Shown here one piece after another: positions 9,342 through 32,844 of a stretch of DNA of 64,000 nt (position 1 is the first letter of the stretch; every line of letters starts with the position of its first letter). Origin of the DNA: Zoogloea dura (GTDB taxonomy: Bacteria > Pseudomonadota > Gammaproteobacteria > Burkholderiales > Rhodocyclaceae). Below the pieces are notes generated by a model that saw only the letters and a list, made by a program, of their open reading frames with translations, ran no database searches and had not been told where the DNA came from. A program made the translations under genes and the position numbers. The stretch is taken from positions 248,001-312,000 of the forward strand of contig NZ_JABBGA010000003.1 of the NCBI RefSeq assembly GCF_012927165.1, written 5' to 3'.

Positions 9342-9431
9342 GGAAGGACTCCAGGGGTGGATGCGTACCCGATTAACGCCCGGTGACCAAAGCGGTGCGC
9401 ATGGAATCATCTCCGGATGTTTCCAACCCCC

Positions 9432-9460
9432 TTGAAAATGCTTTATGCATTTAGTTAAAT
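9432..9460 (+). promoter_or_regulatory. probable sigma-70 promoter of the ComEA-like gene
   Basis: TTGAAA (9432-9437) and TTAAAT (9455-9460) are separated by exactly 17 bases in a locally AT-rich stretch, 37 bases before the ComEA-like start codon. Matches to consensus are 5/6 and 4/6. Confidence 0.5.
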
Positions 9461-9497
9461 GACATCTCCACTACAACCAGAAGCACAAGGAGACATC

Positions 9498-25020: not shown

Positions 25021-25734
25021 ATGAAGCTTCCCCAACACGCCAACGTTTCGTCCGGTGTCGATCGTCGCCACTTTCTGGGTGCTTCCCTTGGCCTGATCGC
25101 CGCGACTTCCCTCGGCGGCCTGGCCCGCCCGGCAAGCGCCGCCAGCCCGATTCTGTTGCCGCCGCTGCCTTATGCTGACAGTGCCCTGGCGCCGGTCATC
25201 TCGGCCAACACCATCGGTTTCCACTACGGAAAGCACCACAAGGGCTATGTGGATAACCTCAACCGCCTGCTGGCCGGCTCCGACCTGGCCGATCTGCCTC
25301 TCGAGAAGATCGTTGCCGCGGTGACCGGCAAGGCCGACAAGACCGCCATCTTCAACAACGCGGCGCAGATCTGGAATCACACCTTCTACTGGAACAGCCT
25401 GCGTCCCAACGGCGGTGGCGAGCCGCCTGTGGCGCTGAAGCAGAAGATCGAGGCATCTTTTGGCAGCGTCGATGCGCTCAAGAAGGAACTGGCCACCGCG
25501 GCCCTGGGGCAGTTCGGCAGCGGTTGGGCCTGGCTGGTGGCCGATGGTGACAAGCTCAAGGTGGTCAAGACCGGCAATGCCGATTTGCCGGCCGCCGGTC
25601 TCAAGCCGCTCCTGACCATTGACGTGTGGGAACACGCCTATTACCTCGACTACCAGAATCGCCGCGCCGATTACGTAAATGCGTTACTCGACAAGCTGAT
25701 CAACTGGGAATTCGCCCTGAAGAACCTGGGCTGA
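25021..25734 (+). CDS. Fe superoxide dismutase with a Tat-type signal peptide
   Basis: A 237-residue Fe/Mn-family SOD that dismutates superoxide. Metal ligands are in place: H68 ([11 protein letters not shown]), H120 (WNHTFYW), D201 and H205 ([11 protein letters not shown]). The active-site glutamine is in AAQIWNHTF, as in Fe-type enzymes. Unusually, it has a ~40-residue N-terminal extension with [11 protein letters not shown], a hydrophobic stretch and ASA-A, matching a twin-arginine signal with a signal peptidase site; most FeSODs are cytosolic. The product therefore probably folds with its metal inside the cell and is exported to the periplasm. A GGAGAG site precedes ATG 25021. Confidence 0.92.
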
Positions 25735-25782: not shown

Positions 25783-27663
25783 CTAACGCCAGTCGCCCCG
25801 CAGCTCTGCCACCTGGAGCTGGAGTGATGGGAGGCTGACCGTTTCCGGAGCCTGGGCTTCACCCGCCACCAGTTCGATACGGCTGAACAGGCCGCGTCGC
25901 AGCGGCCGGCTGAGCACAGGACCATCCTTGCGCGAGAACATGCTGCCCCACAATCCGCGCAGAGCCATCGGGACCACCGGTACCGGGTTGGCCTGGAGAA
26001 TGCGGGTGATGCCCGGACGGAAAGGGCACAGTTCCCCATCGCCGGTGATCCTGCCTTCAGGGAACAGACCTATGAGTTCGCCGGCCGCCAGGGCTTGCGA
26101 TACTTCCGCGAAGGCGGATTCCATCATGGCCGGATCTTCCTTGGCCGGCGCGATCGGAATCGCCCGGCTGTGGCGGAACACGAAGGACAGTACCGGCCAG
26201 CGGAAGATGCGGTGATCCATCACGAAACGGATCGGACGACGGCTGGCGGCGGCAATCACCAGGGCATCCACGAAGCTCACGTGGTTGCACACGATCACGG
26301 CAGGCCCCTCTTCGGGGATGTGCTGGAGGCCTTCCGTACGCAGGCGGTATACCGTGTGGACCAGCAGCCAGATGATGAAGCGCAGCAGGAATTCCGGTAC
26401 CAGCTTGTAGATGTAGATCGCCACGGCGGCATTCATGATCGCCGCCACGCCGAACAACACCGGGATCGACAGCCCTGCGCCGAGCAGGCTGCCCGCGGCC
26501 AGGGCGCCAGCCACCATGAACAGCGCGTTGAGGATGTTGTTGGCTGCGATGATGCGTGCCCGCTGGGCCGGCGCGGAGCGGCTCTGCAGCATGGCGTAGA
26601 GGGGCACGATGAAAAAGCCGCCGAACACGCCCAACATCATGAGTGCCAGTAATACCCGCAGCATGCCGGGTTGTGTCAGGACCTCACCAATGGCCAGCGG
26701 CGCACCTGGCGGCAGCACCGCTGGTGAGGCAAAGGCCAGGTCCAGTCCGAAGAGGGTGAGGCCGATGGAGCCAAAGGGCACCAGACCGATCTCGACGTGG
26801 CCGCCGGACAGTTTTTCGCACAACAGGGAGCCCAGCCCGATACCGATCGTGAAGGTGGCCAGGAGCAGGGTGACGGTACCTTCCCCACCGCCCAGAACGC
26901 CTTTTGCATAGGCCGGAAACTGGGCCAGGAAGAGGGCGCCGTAGAGCCAGAACCAGGAGATGCCCATGATGGCCAGGAACACCGTCTGGTTCTGTCGGGC
27001 GAAACCGATGTTGCGCCAGGTTTCGGTGAAGGGATTGGGATTGATCCGCAAGTCGGGGGCGGGCGCAGGTGCTGGCGGAATGCCGCGGCTGGTGAGGTAG
27101 CCGACCACTGCGACGATCAGGCCTCCGCCGGCGATCCACACATCGCCGTTGTCGAGGCCGGCGAGCAGGCCGCCCACCAGGGTGCCGATCAGGATGGCGA
27201 CAAAGGTGCCGGCCTCCACCAGGGCATTGCCGCCGACCAGTTCTTCCTCGTGCAGGTGCTGGGGCAGCAGCGCGTACTTCACAGGTCCGAACAGCGTCGA
27301 ATGACAACCCAGCAGGAACAGGGCGCTGAACAGCACGGTCAGGCTGTGCAGCAGGAAGCCGGCCAGCGCGACCAGCATGATGGCCATCTCCAGCACTTTC
27401 ACCAGGCGGGTCAGCCGGGCCTTGTCGTACTTGTCGGCAAGCTGCCCGGCACTGGCTGAGAAGAGGAAGAAGGGCAGGATGAAGATGCCCGCGGCCAGGT
27501 TGGAGAGCAGGGCTGGTGAGAGAGTGGTCCAGCTGGCGGTCTGGAAGGTCAGCAGCACGACCAGTGCGTTCTTGAACAGGTTGTCGTTGAAGGCACCCAG
27601 GAACTGGGTCAGGAAGAATGGCCGGAAGCGCCGTTCGCCGAGAAGATGGAATTGGGAGCTCAT
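25783..27663 (-). CDS. MFS lysophospholipid transporter (LplT-like) fused to a PlsC acyltransferase
   Basis: A 626-residue fusion. Residues ~1-420 are a 12-helix major facilitator transporter of the LplT type (FRPFFLTQFLGAFNDNLFKNALVVL; LADKYDKARL loop; LFGPVKYALLPQHL). Residues ~430-626 are a PlsC-type acyltransferase with CNHVSFVDALV (HX4D) and GLFPEGRITGDG (FPEGR). LplT flips lysophosphatidylethanolamine inward and Aas reacylates it. The acyl ligase half of a classic Aas is absent here but present in the first gene of the same operon. The gene overlaps the amidohydrolase gene by 4 bases (ATGA). Confidence 0.9.
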   Translation of the reverse strand: MSSQFHLLGERRFRPFFLTQFLGAFNDNLFKNALVVLLTFQTASWTTLSPALLSNLAAGIFILPFFLFSASAGQLADKYDKARLTRLVKVLEMAIMLVALAGFLLHSLTVLFSALFLLGCHSTLFGPVKYALLPQHLHEEELVGGNALVEAGTFVAILIGTLVGGLLAGLDNGDVWIAGGGLIVAVVGYLTSRGIPPAPAPAPDLRINPNPFTETWRNIGFARQNQTVFLAIMGISWFWLYGALFLAQFPAYAKGVLGGGEGTVTLLLATFTIGIGLGSLLCEKLSGGHVEIGLVPFGSIGLTLFGLDLAFASPAVLPPGAPLAIGEVLTQPGMLRVLLALMMLGVFGGFFIVPLYAMLQSRSAPAQRARIIAANNILNALFMVAGALAAGSLLGAGLSIPVLFGVAAIMNAAVAIYIYKLVPEFLLRFIIWLLVHTVYRLRTEGLQHIPEEGPAVIVCNHVSFVDALVIAAASRRPIRFVMDHRIFRWPVLSFVFRHSRAIPIAPAKEDPAMMESAFAEVSQALAAGELIGLFPEGRITGDGELCPFRPGITRILQANPVPVVPMALRGLWGSMFSRKDGPVLSRPLRRGLFSRIELVAGEAQAPETVSLPSLQLQVAELRGDWR

Positions 27664-28892
27664 GCAGGCGTCCGATCAAAGAAGGGGCGGGTTTCGAAGA
27701 CCCGGTCGGCAAAGCGTGCCGGGCCCGCGCGCAGATGGCGCTTGAGTACGAAGTCGAAGAGCAGCGGATTATGCTCGCGGAGAGTTTCCAGCACCGGTAC
27801 GGCGGCAGGCGCCAGCAGCCCTTCGCGGACCAGTTGCCGTGGTGAGATCAGGGGCAGGATGCCGGGCAGGGGATAGTCCGTGCCGAAGAGCAGACGGGAA
27901 TGCCAGTCGTCCCGCTGGATCAAGGTCCGCAGGGTGGATATCTCGCGGTTGCGCAGGGTGATGGCCGAGATATCCCCGAACAGCTTCCCTTCATGGCGGC
28001 GCTCTGACATCAGACGCGCGAACAGGCTGAAGCTCGGGACCTTCCTGCCCTGCCGGCCGGCATCTTCGTCCTGGTCCTGGCCCAGGCTGGCGCAATGGGC
28101 CACCACCACCCGCACACCCTGGTCGAGGGCCCGGCGCAGACGCAGGGGGTTGCCCCATTCGGGACGCCCGGCCCCATGCACGGCCTTCTCTTCACCGGCA
28201 TGGGTGATCAGAGGCAGATCAAGTCGGGCCAGAGCGGCATAGAAGCGGTCGCACCGGGGGGATGCCGGATCGATTCCCATAGCCGGCGGCAGCCATTTGA
28301 CCGCCCGGGCGCCGTCGCGGACCGCTGCCTCCAGGGCATCCACGCAGTCTTCCCGCCAGGGGTGGATCGAGCAGGCCCATTCGAAGAAGGTCGGATGGGC
28401 GCGGGCCAGATTGCGCGCGTAGTCGTCGGGTACATGAAAGGCGGTGAGGTCCGGGCGGGGACGACCGTCGCCGTCGTGGGTGCGCTCGAAGGCAAAGAGC
28501 AGCAGCTTGAAGCCGCCCTGCATGCCGTCTGCCAGGTTGTGCAGGCGCTCGACGTAGCTCTGGTCTACCTTGCCCGGTGCTTCGTGGGCGCAGCCGGCGT
28601 TTAGGTAAAAGAGCCGCTGGAAATACTCGGCCGGATGCAGCGGGCTCAGCATGCGCGGGTTGATCGTGATGCCGCTGCCGCCGTCACCCAGGCCGGCCAG
28701 ATGGGCATGACAATCCCAGACCTGGGCCGGATCGAGACCTTCCCAGGCGGACCGGATCAGATCATGGCTGGCGATCGGGGGCGGCAGGGAGGCACGGCAG
28801 GGATTCCACAGATTGCGCCGGGCCAGGGCCTGGCCGCCGGCGGTGGCGAGCGCAAGGCTGGCAGCCCCGGCCAGGAAGCGGCGCCGGTTCAT
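27660..28892 (-). CDS. exported metal-dependent amidohydrolase-family protein
   Basis: A 410-residue protein with a signal peptide MNRRRFLAGAASLALATAGGQALA; the RRRFL start resembles a Tat motif. The mature part is an amidohydrolase 2-like TIM barrel: VWDCHAHLAG (HxH), LITHAGEEKAVHG and VVVAHCASLG (metal or catalytic histidines), and LFGTDYPLPGI (the aspartate after strand 8). Such enzymes hydrolyse or decarboxylate varied substrates. The start overlaps the rhombosortase stop by 4 bases and its stop overlaps the next gene by 4 bases, so it is part of the lipid/rhombosortase operon. The substrate is not known. Confidence 0.78.
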   Translation of the reverse strand: MNRRRFLAGAASLALATAGGQALARRNLWNPCRASLPPPIASHDLIRSAWEGLDPAQVWDCHAHLAGLGDGGSGITINPRMLSPLHPAEYFQRLFYLNAGCAHEAPGKVDQSYVERLHNLADGMQGGFKLLLFAFERTHDGDGRPRPDLTAFHVPDDYARNLARAHPTFFEWACSIHPWREDCVDALEAAVRDGARAVKWLPPAMGIDPASPRCDRFYAALARLDLPLITHAGEEKAVHGAGRPEWGNPLRLRRALDQGVRVVVAHCASLGQDQDEDAGRQGRKVPSFSLFARLMSERRHEGKLFGDISAITLRNREISTLRTLIQRDDWHSRLLFGTDYPLPGILPLISPRQLVREGLLAPAAVPVLETLREHNPLLFDFVLKRHLRAGPARFADRVFETRPFFDRTPA

Positions 28893-29437
28893 GATCCGGA
28901 TAGCCTCCCGGCACGCCGGTAGCGGAGGGCCGCCGCGGTGGCGATGCCCAGCAGGATGCCGCCCAGGTGGGCCTGCCAGGTGGTGGAGATGCCTTCCGGC
29001 AGCAAGGGCGAGCTGCCTCCGCGCATGGCATCGAAGCCCAGCTTGGCCAGGTAGGCCAGACCCAGCAGCCGGCCGATGGCACCACCTTCGAGCGCTGCGC
29101 CGACGATCAGGGCACCGACCAGTCCGGAGAGGCCCCGGTAATGCGTCAGGGCCGGAGCTGCTGCCAGCAGGAAGAGCGACAGGAGGGGCGCGAGCAGCGG
29201 CAGGGCGCTCAGCCAGCGCTGGATCCGTCTTCCGGTGATCAGGGCAATTGCGCCAACTGCTGCCAGGTTGCCGGCCAGATGGAGCGCCGACCAATGGCAG
29301 AACTGCCCGGTCCACAAGCGCCACCACTGCCCCTCACCGAAGGCCTCGCGGTTCCACTCCATCGCTTCGCCAGGGAGCAGGTTGGCCGCGGCAAGGAGCA
29401 CGACCAGTGTTGCCAGCAGCATGCGTTCAACCGGCAT
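28889..29437 (-). CDS. rhombosortase (rhomboid-family GlyGly-CTERM protease)
   Basis: A 182-residue intramembrane serine protease with about six helices. Features of the rhombosortase branch: GQWWRLWTGQFCHWSALHLAGNL (H53 and N57), YRGLSGLVGAL with the catalytic serine in GLSG (S104) and TTWQAHLGGILLG with the catalytic histidine (H157). Rhombosortases cut proteins bearing a C-terminal GlyGly-CTERM tail. The gene directly upstream encodes a lipoprotein with such a tail, the expected substrate. The start may be ATG 29437 (overlapping the lipoprotein stop by 11 bases) or ATG 29422. Confidence 0.87.
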   Translation of the reverse strand: MPVERMLLATLVVLLAAANLLPGEAMEWNREAFGEGQWWRLWTGQFCHWSALHLAGNLAAVGAIALITGRRIQRWLSALPLLAPLLSLFLLAAAPALTHYRGLSGLVGALIVGAALEGGAIGRLLGLAYLAKLGFDAMRGGSSPLLPEGISTTWQAHLGGILLGIATAAALRYRRAGRLSGS

Positions 29438-30260
29438 GGCGCTTCTTGAGCATGGCCAGCGCGGCAAGCGTCCCGAGCAGGCCCAGGGTAGCCAGGTCGA
29501 CACTACCGCTGCCCCGGTTGTAGCCCGGTTTCTCGACGATACGGGCGACCTTCTCTTCCTTCACCCGGACCCGGAAGGCTTCCAGCTGAGTATTGAGCCT
29601 GGGAATCAGGTCATCGACGGCCTGCCGGTAGCCCTCGCCGCGCGCTTCCCGCGATGCTTCGGCAAACTTCACCAGCGGCGAGCTGCCCTTGATCTGGCTG
29701 GTGCCCGGCGCGCGGAACAGCAGGCTGCGGGTCGTCATGTCGAAGACCGCAGCATCGACCAGGGTGTTGACGTCATATTGGCTGCCGTTGATGAAATACC
29801 CGCCGACGATGGTCCAGTAGAAGATGGACAGGCGGTTGCTGTCACTGAACTGGACCTGGTCGTAGGAGAGCAGGGCGACCACATCCACATTGAACATGCG
29901 GGCGGCCTGCTGCAGGTTGTCGAAGCCGCCCCGCGGGCGCAGGTAGGTGCTGGGGATGACTTCGATGGCGGCGATGTATGGCCGGTTGGCGAAAGCGTCC
30001 CGCACCCGCTTCAGCAACAGCTCCCTTTCGGTTTCGGGCAGTTCTCCGAGGGTGTTGTTGCCCGGTACGAAGGCGATGCCGACGCGCAGGGGCAGGCGCA
30101 GCTCGGGCACGGTTGGCGTCAGCGTGGGTTGCTCACCCTTCGGGTAAAGGTAGTCGACCACCGAGCCGCGGTGAATCTGCCCGCCCCTGTCGAACCAGGT
30201 GGCGCAGCCGCTCAGAACGAGGGTGGCGAGCAGGAGAGTCGTGATCATCTTGCCGTTCAT
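29427..30260 (-). CDS. rhombotail-type lipoprotein with GlyGly-CTERM-like tail
   Basis: A 277-residue lipoprotein. The N terminus MNGKMITTLLLATLVLSGC carries a lipobox (LSGC, Cys19). The body (VPELRLPLRVGIAFVPGN ... VEVIPSTYLRPRGGFDNLQQAARMFNVDVVALLSYDQ) resembles the rhombotail lipoprotein family. The C terminus NRGSGSVDLATLGLLGTLAAL then basic KKRHAG has the three-part sorting signal: Gly/Ser motif, hydrophobic helix, basic end. It is therefore lipidated at its N terminus and likely processed by the adjacent rhombosortase at its C terminus. ATG 30260 is preceded by CCGGAG; an upstream extension is non-family. Confidence 0.83.
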   Translation of the reverse strand: MNGKMITTLLLATLVLSGCATWFDRGGQIHRGSVVDYLYPKGEQPTLTPTVPELRLPLRVGIAFVPGNNTLGELPETERELLLKRVRDAFANRPYIAAIEVIPSTYLRPRGGFDNLQQAARMFNVDVVALLSYDQVQFSDSNRLSIFYWTIVGGYFINGSQYDVNTLVDAAVFDMTTRSLLFRAPGTSQIKGSSPLVKFAEASREARGEGYRQAVDDLIPRLNTQLEAFRVRVKEEKVARIVEKPGYNRGSGSVDLATLGLLGTLAALAMLKKRHAG

Positions 30261-30277
30261 GGGAGGTGCTCCGGCTG

Positions 30278-32419
30278 TCAGGCCTGTTCGGCCCATTGTT
30301 TGAGGGTGACGTAGTCGATCTTGCCGGTGCCGAGCAGCGGCAGCGTTTCTACCAGGATGAGTCGTCGCGGTACTGCAATTTCCGGCCAACCTCCATCGCG
30401 TGCTGCGGTTTGCAGCTGTTCGCGACTGAGCTTCGGATCCGTGGTGAACAGCAGGATCGCTTCGCCACGGGTCGGGTCCGCCTGGGTGGAGGCCGCGTGG
30501 GCGGCGCCCGGCGAGGCGGCGGCGGCCAGCTTCTCGACGGATTCCAGCGACACCATCTCGCCGGCCACCTTGGCGAAGCGCTTGACCCGGCCGACGATCT
30601 TGACGAAGCCCTCGGCGTCGATCTCCACGACGTCGCCGGTTTCGTACCAGCCTTCGCCAGCGGGGGAGACGGGGGGCTGCAGGACGCCGGGGTTTTCGAA
30701 ACGCAGGTAGCCGGACATCAGGTTGGGGCCCTTCACGTGCAGCATGCCGCCATCCGGAATACCGGGGACCGGGATCAGGCGCGACTCGATGCCGGGCAGG
30801 AACTGCCCCACTGTGCCGCTGCGGAAGGCCATGCGGGTGTTCACCGCCAGCACGGGCGCGGTCTCGGTGGCGCCGTAGCCTTCAAAAATACGGATGCCGA
30901 ACTTCTCGAACCACAGGTCGCGTACCGGTGCGGCCAGCTTCTCGGCCCCGGCGATCACGTAGCGCAGCCGGTAGAAGTCGTAGGGATGGGCGAACTTGGC
31001 GTAGTTGCCAAGGAAGGTGCTGGTCCCCAGCAAGACGGTGCAGTTGCGGTCATAGGCCACCTCCGGGATGACCCGGTAGTGGAGCGGAGACGGGTAGAGG
31101 AAGACCCGGGCACCGGTGAGGACCGGCAGCAGGCCGCCGGCGGTGAGGCCGAAGGAGTGGAACAGGGGCAGGGCGTTGAGGATCTTGTCGTCGATGGAGA
31201 AATCCACCACGGCACGGATCTGCGCCACATTGGCGAGCAGGGCGCGATGGGACAGCACGACGCCCTTGGGCTTGCCTTCCGATCCGGATGTGAACAACAC
31301 CACCGCCGGATCTTCCGGGGAGGCGCTGGCGGGCAGGGCGAGGCGGGGAAACGGCGAGGCCCACAGCAGCAGCCACAGCTTGTCACCCAGGCCGATCTGC
31401 TCGCGCAGATCTTCCAGGTGGAGGATGCGGACGTCGCGCAGCGCAGCCAGCTTGTCGCCGAGCTTGGCCTGGTCGACGAAGGCGCGGGAGGTGATGATGG
31501 TGCGGATCTGCGCAGCGGTGCAGGCCGACTGCATGCTGTCGACGCCAGCCGTGTAGTTGAGCATGGCGGCGACGCGGCCATGGGCCGACAGGCCGAAGAG
31601 CAATCCCAGGGTTGGCGCCAGGTTGGGCAGCAACAGGCCGACCTTCTCGCCCGGACTGCTCTCGCGGGCGGCCAGGCGACCAAGTGCCAGGGCCATGCGG
31701 GTCAGGTCGCGATAGCTGTACTCGATCTGCTTGAGATCCTCCACCAGGCGATGTCCGCTGCCCTGAATCGCAGAGGCTTCGAGGAGGGCACCGAACAGTG
31801 TCTGCTCCGGCCGGGTGGCAAAGATCATCTCCTGCATCACGCGGCGCATGCCTTCGCCCGCCAGGCGGCGGCGCTGGCGCGCGGTGGGGGCCTCGGGCAT
31901 CGGAATCCGGGTCGGCTCCAGGATGGACAGGCTGATCTTCGGGAACAGGCGTCGCGGCACGTGGGAGGCCAGGCGGGAGAAATAGGTGCGCGCGGCACCA
32001 TCGATGCGGACCGGGAGAACCGTGGCTCCGGTCTTGGCGGCCACGAAGGCCGGCCCCTCGTAGGTCTTCATCAGGCTGCCGGTGGTGGTGATGCGGCCCT
32101 CCGGAAAGATCACCACCGGCCGGCCGGCTTCGAGCAGGCGGATCACCTTCTTCATGGCCATCGGGCTGGTCGGGTCCACCGCCAGGTAATCGACCAAGCA
32201 CAGCAGCAGCCGGAAGGCTGGGTTGGCCGCCACGCCGGTATGCACGACAAACACCGGGTCGAGAGGCAGGAAAAGGCCGAGCAGAAGACCATCCAGAAAG
32301 GACTCGTGATTGGCGATGATCAGCAGCCGCTCACCGTCGGAAGGTGTCTGCCCCTTCAGGCGCACACGGAACAGCAGGCGGGTCACGATGCGCAGAAGCG
32401 CCTTGAGCAGGGTTCGCAT
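30278..32419 (-). CDS. Aas-like PlsC acyltransferase fused to AMP-dependent acyl ligase
   Basis: A 713-residue two-domain enzyme. Residues ~1-190 are a PlsC acyltransferase (IANHESFLDGLLL, HX4D; VVIFPEGRITTTG, FPEGR). Residues ~215-713 are an AMP-forming ligase: VVLFTSGSEGKPKGVVLSH (P-loop), GYGATETAPV, GWYETGDVVEI and GTGKIDYVTLK at the end. This is the layout of Aas (acyl-ACP synthetase/2-acylglycerophosphoethanolamine acyltransferase), which reacylates lyso-PE. It lies first in a five-gene reverse-strand operon, 17 bases before the lipoprotein gene. Confidence 0.88.
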   Translation of the reverse strand: MRTLLKALLRIVTRLLFRVRLKGQTPSDGERLLIIANHESFLDGLLLGLFLPLDPVFVVHTGVAANPAFRLLLCLVDYLAVDPTSPMAMKKVIRLLEAGRPVVIFPEGRITTTGSLMKTYEGPAFVAAKTGATVLPVRIDGAARTYFSRLASHVPRRLFPKISLSILEPTRIPMPEAPTARQRRRLAGEGMRRVMQEMIFATRPEQTLFGALLEASAIQGSGHRLVEDLKQIEYSYRDLTRMALALGRLAARESSPGEKVGLLLPNLAPTLGLLFGLSAHGRVAAMLNYTAGVDSMQSACTAAQIRTIITSRAFVDQAKLGDKLAALRDVRILHLEDLREQIGLGDKLWLLLWASPFPRLALPASASPEDPAVVLFTSGSEGKPKGVVLSHRALLANVAQIRAVVDFSIDDKILNALPLFHSFGLTAGGLLPVLTGARVFLYPSPLHYRVIPEVAYDRNCTVLLGTSTFLGNYAKFAHPYDFYRLRYVIAGAEKLAAPVRDLWFEKFGIRIFEGYGATETAPVLAVNTRMAFRSGTVGQFLPGIESRLIPVPGIPDGGMLHVKGPNLMSGYLRFENPGVLQPPVSPAGEGWYETGDVVEIDAEGFVKIVGRVKRFAKVAGEMVSLESVEKLAAAASPGAAHAASTQADPTRGEAILLFTTDPKLSREQLQTAARDGGWPEIAVPRRLILVETLPLLGTGKIDYVTLKQWAEQA

Positions 32420-32442: not shown

Positions 32443-32754
32443 TCAGAGATAAGCCGCCAAATAACTGGTGACCCGGCCGAAGGATGTCTCGAGGAAGGTT
32501 TTATTGACCCGGAAATAAATTTCCTTTCCTTCCCGTTCGGAAATCAGCACCCCGGCCTCACGCAGGACCTTGAGGTGGTGTGACACTGTGGAGCGGGCCA
32601 GGGTGGACACCTCCGCGATCTGGCCCACGTTGAGTCGCTCGCCAGGCTCGAAACTCAGCAGGATGCGTTGCCGGTGTTCATCGCCGAGAGCCGCGAAAAT
32701 AGCGGAGATGTCGCGCCAGGCTGTCGGAATCGTTCGCGAGTAGTCTTTGTTCAT
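32443..32754 (-). CDS. ArsR-family winged-helix repressor
   Basis: A ~103-residue transcriptional regulator. It has the ArsR/SmtB winged helix: AWRDISAIFAALGDEHRQRILLSF, then EVSTLARSTVSHHLKVLREAGVLIS (recognition helix) and EREGKEIYFRVNKTFLE (wing). No ArsR-type metal cysteines (CxC motif) are seen, so the signal is probably not arsenic. It lies 23 bases upstream of the acyltransferase operon on the same strand and may control it. I start at ATG 32754; longer frames read through the palindrome upstream. The predicted promoter would make the transcript nearly leaderless. Confidence 0.82.
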   Translation of the reverse strand: MNKDYSRTIPTAWRDISAIFAALGDEHRQRILLSFEPGERLNVGQIAEVSTLARSTVSHHLKVLREAGVLISEREGKEIYFRVNKTFLETSFGRVTSYLAAYL

Positions 32755-32773
32755 GTCGATAATCATCGACATG
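32752..32773. promoter_or_regulatory. palindromic operator at the ArsR-family gene start
   Basis: A perfect 9-bp inverted repeat CATGTCGAT/ATCGACATG with a 4-base spacer overlaps the start codon and the predicted -10 region of the regulator gene, a typical place for autorepression. Its size and symmetry fit a winged-helix dimer. Confidence 0.65.
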
Positions 32774-32790
32774 TTCGTTGTATGTGTCAA
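32762..32790 (-). promoter_or_regulatory. promoter of the ArsR-family gene / lipid operon
   Basis: On the reverse strand TTGACA (32790-32785) is a perfect -35; GATGAT (32767-32762) lies 17 bases on and falls within the palindrome. The predicted transcription start is about base 32755, right at the start codon. Confidence 0.5.
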
Positions 32791-32844
32791 GTTGGAGCAC
32801 ATCCCGAAATGCCCGGAAATCCTGGTGTTGCACCGCGACAATGA

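Follow-up and report, generated by a model that had tools for sequence, protein, structure and literature searches.

A rhombosortase and its likely lipoprotein target probably inserted into a conserved operon for probable lysophospholipid repair in Zoogloea

Zoogloea is a floc-forming environmental bacterium, and a 64,000-nucleotide stretch of the Zoogloea dura genome (contig NZ_JABBGA010000003.1, positions 248,001 to 312,000; here, the window) carries an operon that we read as a composite of two parts. One part is an old lysophospholipid-repair core, in which an ArsR-type regulator, Aas, an exported amidohydrolase, and an LplT-type transporter fused to a PlsC domain are encoded in that order. 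The other is a protein-sorting pair, a rhombosortase and the rhombotarget lipoprotein that it likely cuts; the ancestor of Zoogloea probably gained it as an insertion that separates aas from the amidohydrolase gene. We put the probability of this reading at roughly 0.7.

RESULTS

The conserved core, regulator-Aas-exported amidohydrolase-LplT/PlsC, occurs without the pair outside Zoogloea. Named genomes were searched with the amidohydrolase, which gave 64 loci (11 from Zoogloea and 53 from other bacteria), and the module was mapped by tblastn and profile models over stretches of up to 10 kb a side, some loci lying on short contigs. Gene calls in relatives came from our own open reading frame picker and are rough, and for neighbor families Pfam names were assigned from representative members only. 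Aas, the rhombosortase, the amidohydrolase, and LplT-PlsC were present at all 11 Zoogloea loci and the lipoprotein at 10; the ArsR-type regulator was likewise found at 10, and the eleventh contig begins inside Aas. The locus that lacks the lipoprotein comes from a metagenome-assembled genome of Zoogloea sp. SB3 (L068), where an 18-codon remnant of the gene (9410 to 9466), similar to relatives in its first and last codons, lies between intact neighbors and Aas, the rhombosortase, the amidohydrolase, and LplT-PlsC are all kept. By contrast, neither the rhombosortase nor the lipoprotein was found in the stretches read around any of the 53 non-Zoogloea amidohydrolase genes. Co-occurrence across relatives, the check that the initial annotation had proposed, holds within Zoogloea and breaks down outside it, apart from linkages in three genomes (G311, G589, and G081) described below.

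Aas and/or LplT accompanied the amidohydrolase at 32 of the 53 non-Zoogloea loci (22 with both), all of them among the 39 loci that are not from Myxococcota; at those 39, the ArsR-type regulator was found 25 times, DUF2339 16 times, and DUF3999 8 times. Moreover, 17 of the 23 Aas-bearing non-Zoogloea loci run from Aas almost directly into the amidohydrolase, so that the two profile matches are 8 to 100 bases apart; this is the empty site of the insertion. Family trees came from quick IQ-TREE searches with Shimodaira-Hasegawa-like approximate likelihood ratio test (SH-aLRT) support only, and in them the 12 Zoogloea-type amidohydrolases (window included) formed one clade (SH-aLRT 99) nested among pair-less Rhodocyclales loci such as those of Aromatoleum. 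Because of this nesting, insertion of the pair is a simpler account than its repeated loss. The lipoprotein model TIGR04179 matched in none of 12 other listed genomes of the window's family, and in G792 Aas is followed at once by the amidohydrolase on one contig and the lipoprotein and rhombosortase lie on another. Searched whole, 45 non-Zoogloea genomes yielded a rhombosortase over the cut-off in 3, among them G792, and just under it (66 to 78 bits) in 3 more, and all four Zoogloea genomes searched in this way had one over it. The curated cut-off was used here (7 of 49 genomes), as the model at E ≤ 0.001 matched in 22 of the 49 but also in 14 of 14 controls.

The genes are tightly packed on the minus strand between 25783 and 32419. 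All five genes of the initial annotation are found there, and their coordinates confirm overlaps of 11 bases between the lipoprotein and rhombosortase genes, 4 between the rhombosortase and amidohydrolase genes, and 4 between the amidohydrolase and LplT-PlsC genes; a gap of 17 bases separates aas from the lipoprotein gene. The list of five was correct but overlooked the ArsR-type regulator, which is encoded upstream of aas in the same direction, has its end at 32443 (23 bases away), and is the first gene of the conserved module (its start codon is uncertain, and the frame is open to 32841). The arrangement is not due to chance, because relatives within Zoogloea keep it.

The amidohydrolase often accompanies envelope glycerophospholipid handling, with or without a rhombosortase. 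An even class sample of 369 genomes, taken in one draw, contained a strong amidohydrolase (E ≤ 1e-90; of 54 listed at 1e-40, 16 weaker or partial ones were set aside) in 38, and Aas, LplT, or Arc3-type genes lay within about 7 kb of it in 14 of the 38, window counted. A rhombosortase over the cut-off is common in the sample (126 of 369) and was found in 19 of 38 genomes with the amidohydrolase and 107 of 331 without it (Fisher p = 0.045, not corrected for kinship). That rhombosortase presence drives the amidohydrolase was rejected on these genome searches; the co-occurrence is weak. For the rhombotarget lipoprotein, the corresponding counts were 5 of 38 and 13 of 331 (p = 0.028, uncorrected), and the lipoprotein and amidohydrolase genes were adjacent or near in two of the five genomes with both, the window's and G311. 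Genome G021, in which a weak amidohydrolase-like match (156 bits) lies 7 to 8 kb from a rhombosortase, was not counted as a module member. At seven loci (L204, L205, L213, L218, L221, L224, and L225), an Atg22-like protein of the major facilitator superfamily (MFS; Pfam was run on L204 only) is encoded beside the amidohydrolase, the LplT model has no match, and the Atg22-like protein perhaps replaces LplT. We note that L218 (12368 to 14214, genome G184) has an MlaD-domain protein and an ATP-binding cassette (ABC) ATPase directly upstream of its Aas-MFS-amidohydrolase run, a further case of phospholipid-transport genes in the neighborhood.

The sorting pair is a catalogued one, TIGR03902 with TIGR04179. 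The lipoprotein scored 279.5 bits with TIGR04179 ("rhombotarget lipoprotein") against a cut-off of 150, and the rhombosortase scored 92.6 bits with TIGR03902 against a cut-off of 84. A lipobox, LSGC, and a Gly-rich/hydrophobic/basic tail, RGSGSVDLATLGLLGTLAALAMLKKRHAG, mark the lipoprotein; the tail has the form RGSGS-hydrophobic-KKRHAG in the window, and in the 10 Zoogloea relatives that encode the lipoprotein, GG or more Gly stands in place of GSGS. The rhombosortase retains GLSG (RGLSGLVG) and the His of WQAHLGG, and we take the GxSG Ser and this His to be the catalytic residues. It is the sole match at E ≤ 1e-8 in the window's genome, in which matches to the GlyGly-CTERM model TIGR03501 (E ≤ 10) nowhere exceeded 15.5 bits; there were three sub-threshold matches, none of them to the lipoprotein tail. 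No relative of the lipoprotein was found in the viral contigs scanned. At another locus (L062, 9447 to 11165, genome G755), two tandem rhombotarget lipoprotein copies precede the rhombosortase; the open frame of the first stops before the tail, with a model match that spans stop codons, and the second has the tail.

With a single rhombosortase and no GlyGly-CTERM match over the cut-off, therefore, the pair looks like one of the dedicated protease-target systems that were described in 2011 (PMC3237569; papers cited by PMC number are drawn on here through parts of their text). A rhombosortase beside its only target is a described pattern, and protease and target were at most one gene apart in 16 of 21 single-target genomes (PMC3237569). 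Family scores and gene order thus bear out the claim of the initial annotation that a rhombosortase and an adjacent likely substrate lie within an apparent lysophospholipid-recycling operon. The pair can be set beside RssP and VesB of Vibrio cholerae. As a TIGR03902/TIGR04179 pair, it resembles them in that both proteins exceed curated cut-offs, the genes are adjacent, and there is a single rhombosortase at E ≤ 1e-8, whereas the window's target is an N-terminal lipoprotein with a GSGS rather than a GG tail, and TIGR03501 has no match over the cut-off in the genome. The C-terminal glycine of VesB bears ethanolamine or glycerophosphoethanolamine, for which transamidation onto the amine of a glycerophosphoethanolamine lipid, possibly phosphatidylethanolamine (PE), was proposed, with a second enzyme allowed for (PMC6219818). 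A later rhombosortase paper does not name the acceptor in its abstract or discussion (PMC13393428), and a 2025 paper again says "possibly" PE (PMC11980579).

Aas scored 982.3 bits with NF005959 against a cut-off of 886 and has both a PlsC domain (PF01553) and an AMP-binding domain (PF00501). The best match of the LplT-PlsC protein, NF005291, scored 563.5 bits against a cut-off of 1349 and covers the first half of the model; sub-cut-off matches, the PlsC fusion, and the context suggest that the protein works like LplT. LplT and Aas work as a complex, by which lyso-PE is imported and re-acylated; known sources of lyso-PE, namely phospholipases, PagP, and Lnt, need no rhombosortase (PMC11416262). 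The operon resembles aas-lplT of Escherichia coli and PA3267 of Pseudomonas aeruginosa in having an Aas over its cut-off and an LplT-type transporter, and PlsC is fused to LplT as in PA3267 (PMC8926400). It differs in that a full Aas is combined with a PlsC-fused LplT and an exported amidohydrolase lies between them, in the added ArsR-type regulator and, in Zoogloea, the rhombosortase pair, and in an LplT part that falls below its cut-off.

A second lysophospholipid system, the phospholipase-toxin defense Arc3, is found among relatives of the module. Arc3A and Arc3B correspond to DUF2339 and DUF3999, Arc3A keeps lysophospholipids from accumulating when a phospholipase attacks, and aas genes adjoin arc3 in many bacteria (PMC8926400); aas and arc3A again appear together in PMC12663445. 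Module relatives carry DUF2339/DUF3999 in the same cluster (by Pfam at one locus and by our own models elsewhere), and both systems handle lysophospholipids, but the window's genome is without DUF2339. In all six Methylotenera-type loci (L105, L106, L109, L110, L113, and L122), DUF2339/DUF3999 genes lie between Aas and LplT, and some of an M28 peptidase, a C92 papain-like amidase, and DUF2145 are also inserted.

The amidohydrolase belongs to its superfamily by a score of 46.6 bits with Amidohydro_2 (PF04909; cut-off, 26.4), which is the only Pfam match, and NCBIfam gave none. Among 36 aligned family sequences, D60, H64, K199, H231, H266, and D339 are invariant and H62 is conserved in at least 90%; HxH, K, H, H, and D are presumably the metal-ligand set of the superfamily. 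In a 16-row alignment, conservation of the twin-arginine start reaches at least 90%; in the 36-row alignment the start is the majority consensus, and some members, such as that of L110 (Methylotenera), are without it. Residue set and twin-arginine start fit a metal-dependent periplasmic hydrolase. A PDB search with one amidohydrolase sequence returned nothing below E 0.09, and a search with the 36-sequence profile returned weak matches to two uncharacterized proteins (2f6k, E 0.00056; 3irs, E 0.01). A literature search on LplT/Aas/lysophospholipid operons turned up no paper that names an amidohydrolase in this setting; the one paper found that brings together amidohydrolase, lysophospholipid, outer membrane, and periplasm (PMC3715468) is about TesA. 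The amidohydrolase recurs near Aas, LplT, and Arc3A/B genes; it is a better lead than a combined lipidation-repair unit and may be a participant in lipid repair that has so far gone unnoticed.

Rhombotarget loci elsewhere mostly lack the core. The lipoprotein is over its cut-off in 18 of the 369 class genomes, 14 of 399 genomes of the order, 5 of 57 of the order of G311, 6 of 12 of the genus of G589, and 1 of 6 of the order of G081, which together make 35 different genomes with the window's included. In the flanks read, which extended to about 10 kb on each side and were shorter where the contig was short, 31 of the 34 other loci showed no Aas, LplT, or amidohydrolase. The remaining three are linked to one or more of these genes. 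G311 has the order lipoprotein-rhombosortase-amidohydrolase with Aas-LplT divergent, and its amidohydrolase belongs to another clade; behind this run (L036, 1239 to 7198) are genes for an HMG-CoA reductase, a PPDK-like protein, and a DUF3419 protein. G589 has LplT-PlsC, the lipoprotein, and the rhombosortase together, but this linkage may not be independent, because a neighbor that we take to be YaeQ-like is common to G589 and the window. In G081, Aas-LplT lies about 3 kb from the lipoprotein, divergent and with three genes between, the rhombosortase is on another contig, and the lipoprotein is very divergent (183 bits, long branch).

The linkage needs four changes on the lipoprotein tree. None was found in the other four rhombotarget genomes of G311's order or in the other five of G589's genus, where two AAS-model matches at L059 were discounted and set to 0 in the linkage count: they were treated as other AMP ligases, with 25 to 26% tblastn identity over the ligase part only and no Aas at E ≤ 1e-100 in the genome. 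Six short-flank rows (L026, L027, L028, L056, L066, and L154) were left out of that count. Against a rough expectation of 0.1 to 0.4, which is our own estimate from genome and window size, three or more linkages have a Poisson P of 0.0002 to 0.008. A count of neighbor families placed LplT among five families tied at 4 of 31 rhombotarget loci, behind the rhombosortase. Aas/AMP ligases are another of the five, and the remaining three were identified by eye as an ABC transporter, a short-chain dehydrogenase, and an ABC binding-protein family.

The genes of the operon are collected in Table 1. Convergent with the operon, at 25021 to 25734 of the window, is a gene for an Fe/Mn superoxide dismutase with a twin-arginine-like start.

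Table 1. Genes of the composite operon, in order of transcription, with positions in the window
Product	Position	Strand	Model matches and motifs
ArsR/SmtB-type transcriptional regulator	32443..32802	-	NF033788, 69.4 bits (cut-off 55)
Aas (PlsC-type acyltransferase fused to AMP-binding acyl-acyl carrier protein synthetase)	30278..32419	-	NF005959, PF01553, PF00501
Rhombotarget lipoprotein with tripartite C-terminal tail	29427..30260	-	TIGR04179; lipobox LSGC
Rhombosortase (rhomboid-type intramembrane serine protease)	28889..29437	-	TIGR03902; GLSG and AHLGG motifs
Exported amidohydrolase (twin-arginine-like signal, Amidohydro_2)	27660..28892	-	PF04909
LplT-type MFS lysophospholipid transporter fused to PlsC domain	25783..27663	-	PF07690, PF01553; NF005291/NF008397 below cut-off

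DISCUSSION

How the composite operon might work can be sketched from its parts. Lysophospholipids would arise from phospholipases or from acyl-donating enzymes such as Lnt and PagP, the LplT domain would flip them inward, and Aas and the fused PlsC domain would re-acylate them. The amidohydrolase would most likely act in the periplasm, just before uptake, by stripping away or opening some part of a damaged or N-modified lipid and so making that lipid available to LplT, a role that we infer from gene neighborhood alone. Into this pathway, the Zoogloea ancestor would have taken the lipoprotein and rhombosortase between aas and the amidohydrolase gene. The rhombosortase would cut the C-terminal tail of the lipoprotein and may leave the lipoprotein joined to PE, by analogy with VesB. 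The overlaps between the genes suggest that the pair has come to be expressed with the rest of the operon. A functional tie of the pair to the repair core is possible, as the arrangement is kept in Zoogloea and the three outside linkages lie above the rough chance estimate; sorting and repair may also be linked chemically.

Several observations weigh against the composite reading. In the class sample, 24 of the 38 amidohydrolase genomes are without Aas, LplT, or Arc3-type neighbors, some of them on short contigs. Neither Aas nor LplT accompanies the amidohydrolase at 7 of the 39 non-Myxococcota loci, and partner genes were found in the stretches read at none of the 14 Myxococcota loci. Moreover, the transporter falls short of LplT membership (95.8 bits with NF008397 against a cut-off of 297), the window's genome contains one Aas at E ≤ 1e-100, and it has no match to the Arc3 domain DUF2339 (PF10101) at E ≤ 0.001. 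Finally, Aas, LplT, or the amidohydrolase near 3 of the 34 other rhombotarget loci hints that the pair may be more than a passenger.

What joins sorting to repair within the composite operon can be read in two ways. The pair may simply have landed in an envelope operon, whose transcription it shares and nothing more, and we give such plain hitch-hiking a little short of even odds. The commonness of the rhombosortase and its weak genome-level co-occurrence with the amidohydrolase are what a passenger would show. Three linkages are more than the rough expectation allows for such a passenger, however, LplT ranks among the tied families behind the rhombosortase, and the order lipoprotein-rhombosortase-amidohydrolase recurs in G311, whose amidohydrolase belongs to another clade. 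Alternatively, the sorted lipoprotein itself might be a surface or periplasmic part of lysolipid repair, for example one that binds or carries lipid, such that joint regulation would be useful without any common chemistry. We consider this a tentative reading with perhaps a third of the odds in its favor or less, to which the three outside linkages and the uncorrected excess of the lipoprotein among amidohydrolase genomes lend weight, but 31 of the 34 rhombotarget loci outside the window are not near core genes and the Zoogloea genome of L068 lost the lipoprotein and kept all else.

Two further proposals concern the chemistry of sorting. At long odds, we speculate that the amidohydrolase might be a periplasmic amidase for PE with an acyl group on its amine, the general substrate being N-acyl-PE-type lipids from damaged envelopes. 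The amide of N-acyl-PE and that of protein-Gly-CO-NH-PE are chemically of the same kind, and the enzyme could therefore act on the product of the rhombosortase. In Zoogloea and G311, where its gene lies directly behind those of the lipoprotein and rhombosortase, it would then detach sorted lipoproteins and make the C-terminal lipid anchor reversible, much as in Atg8-PE conjugation and release; if so, LplT and Aas would recycle the freed lipid when a chain is lost. The least probable proposal, and a very unlikely one, is that of the initial annotation, a self-contained unit in which the rhombosortase uses a phospholipid as acceptor and leaves a lysolipid for LplT and Aas to repair: the conserved arrangement in Zoogloea (rhombosortase at 11 of 11 loci) and the three outside linkages agree with it, but the core stands without the pair at 53 of 53 non-Zoogloea loci, the pair stands without the core at 31 of 34 loci, and transamidation onto the PE amine, as proposed in the part of PMC6219818 drawn on here, would by inference consume a whole PE and release no lysolipid.

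Experimental work on the acceptor and fate of the rhombosortase product has, so far as we found, been done in V. cholerae. Zoogloea is a compact place in which to test both, as one operon there combines the single rhombosortase with an adjacent target and with genes for lipid repair. A conserved amidohydrolase of Tat type, with neighbors that include Aas, LplT, and Arc3 genes and at one such locus an MlaD-domain gene next to Aas, would be a further enzyme in the pathway that lets Gram-negative bacteria survive attack by phospholipases.

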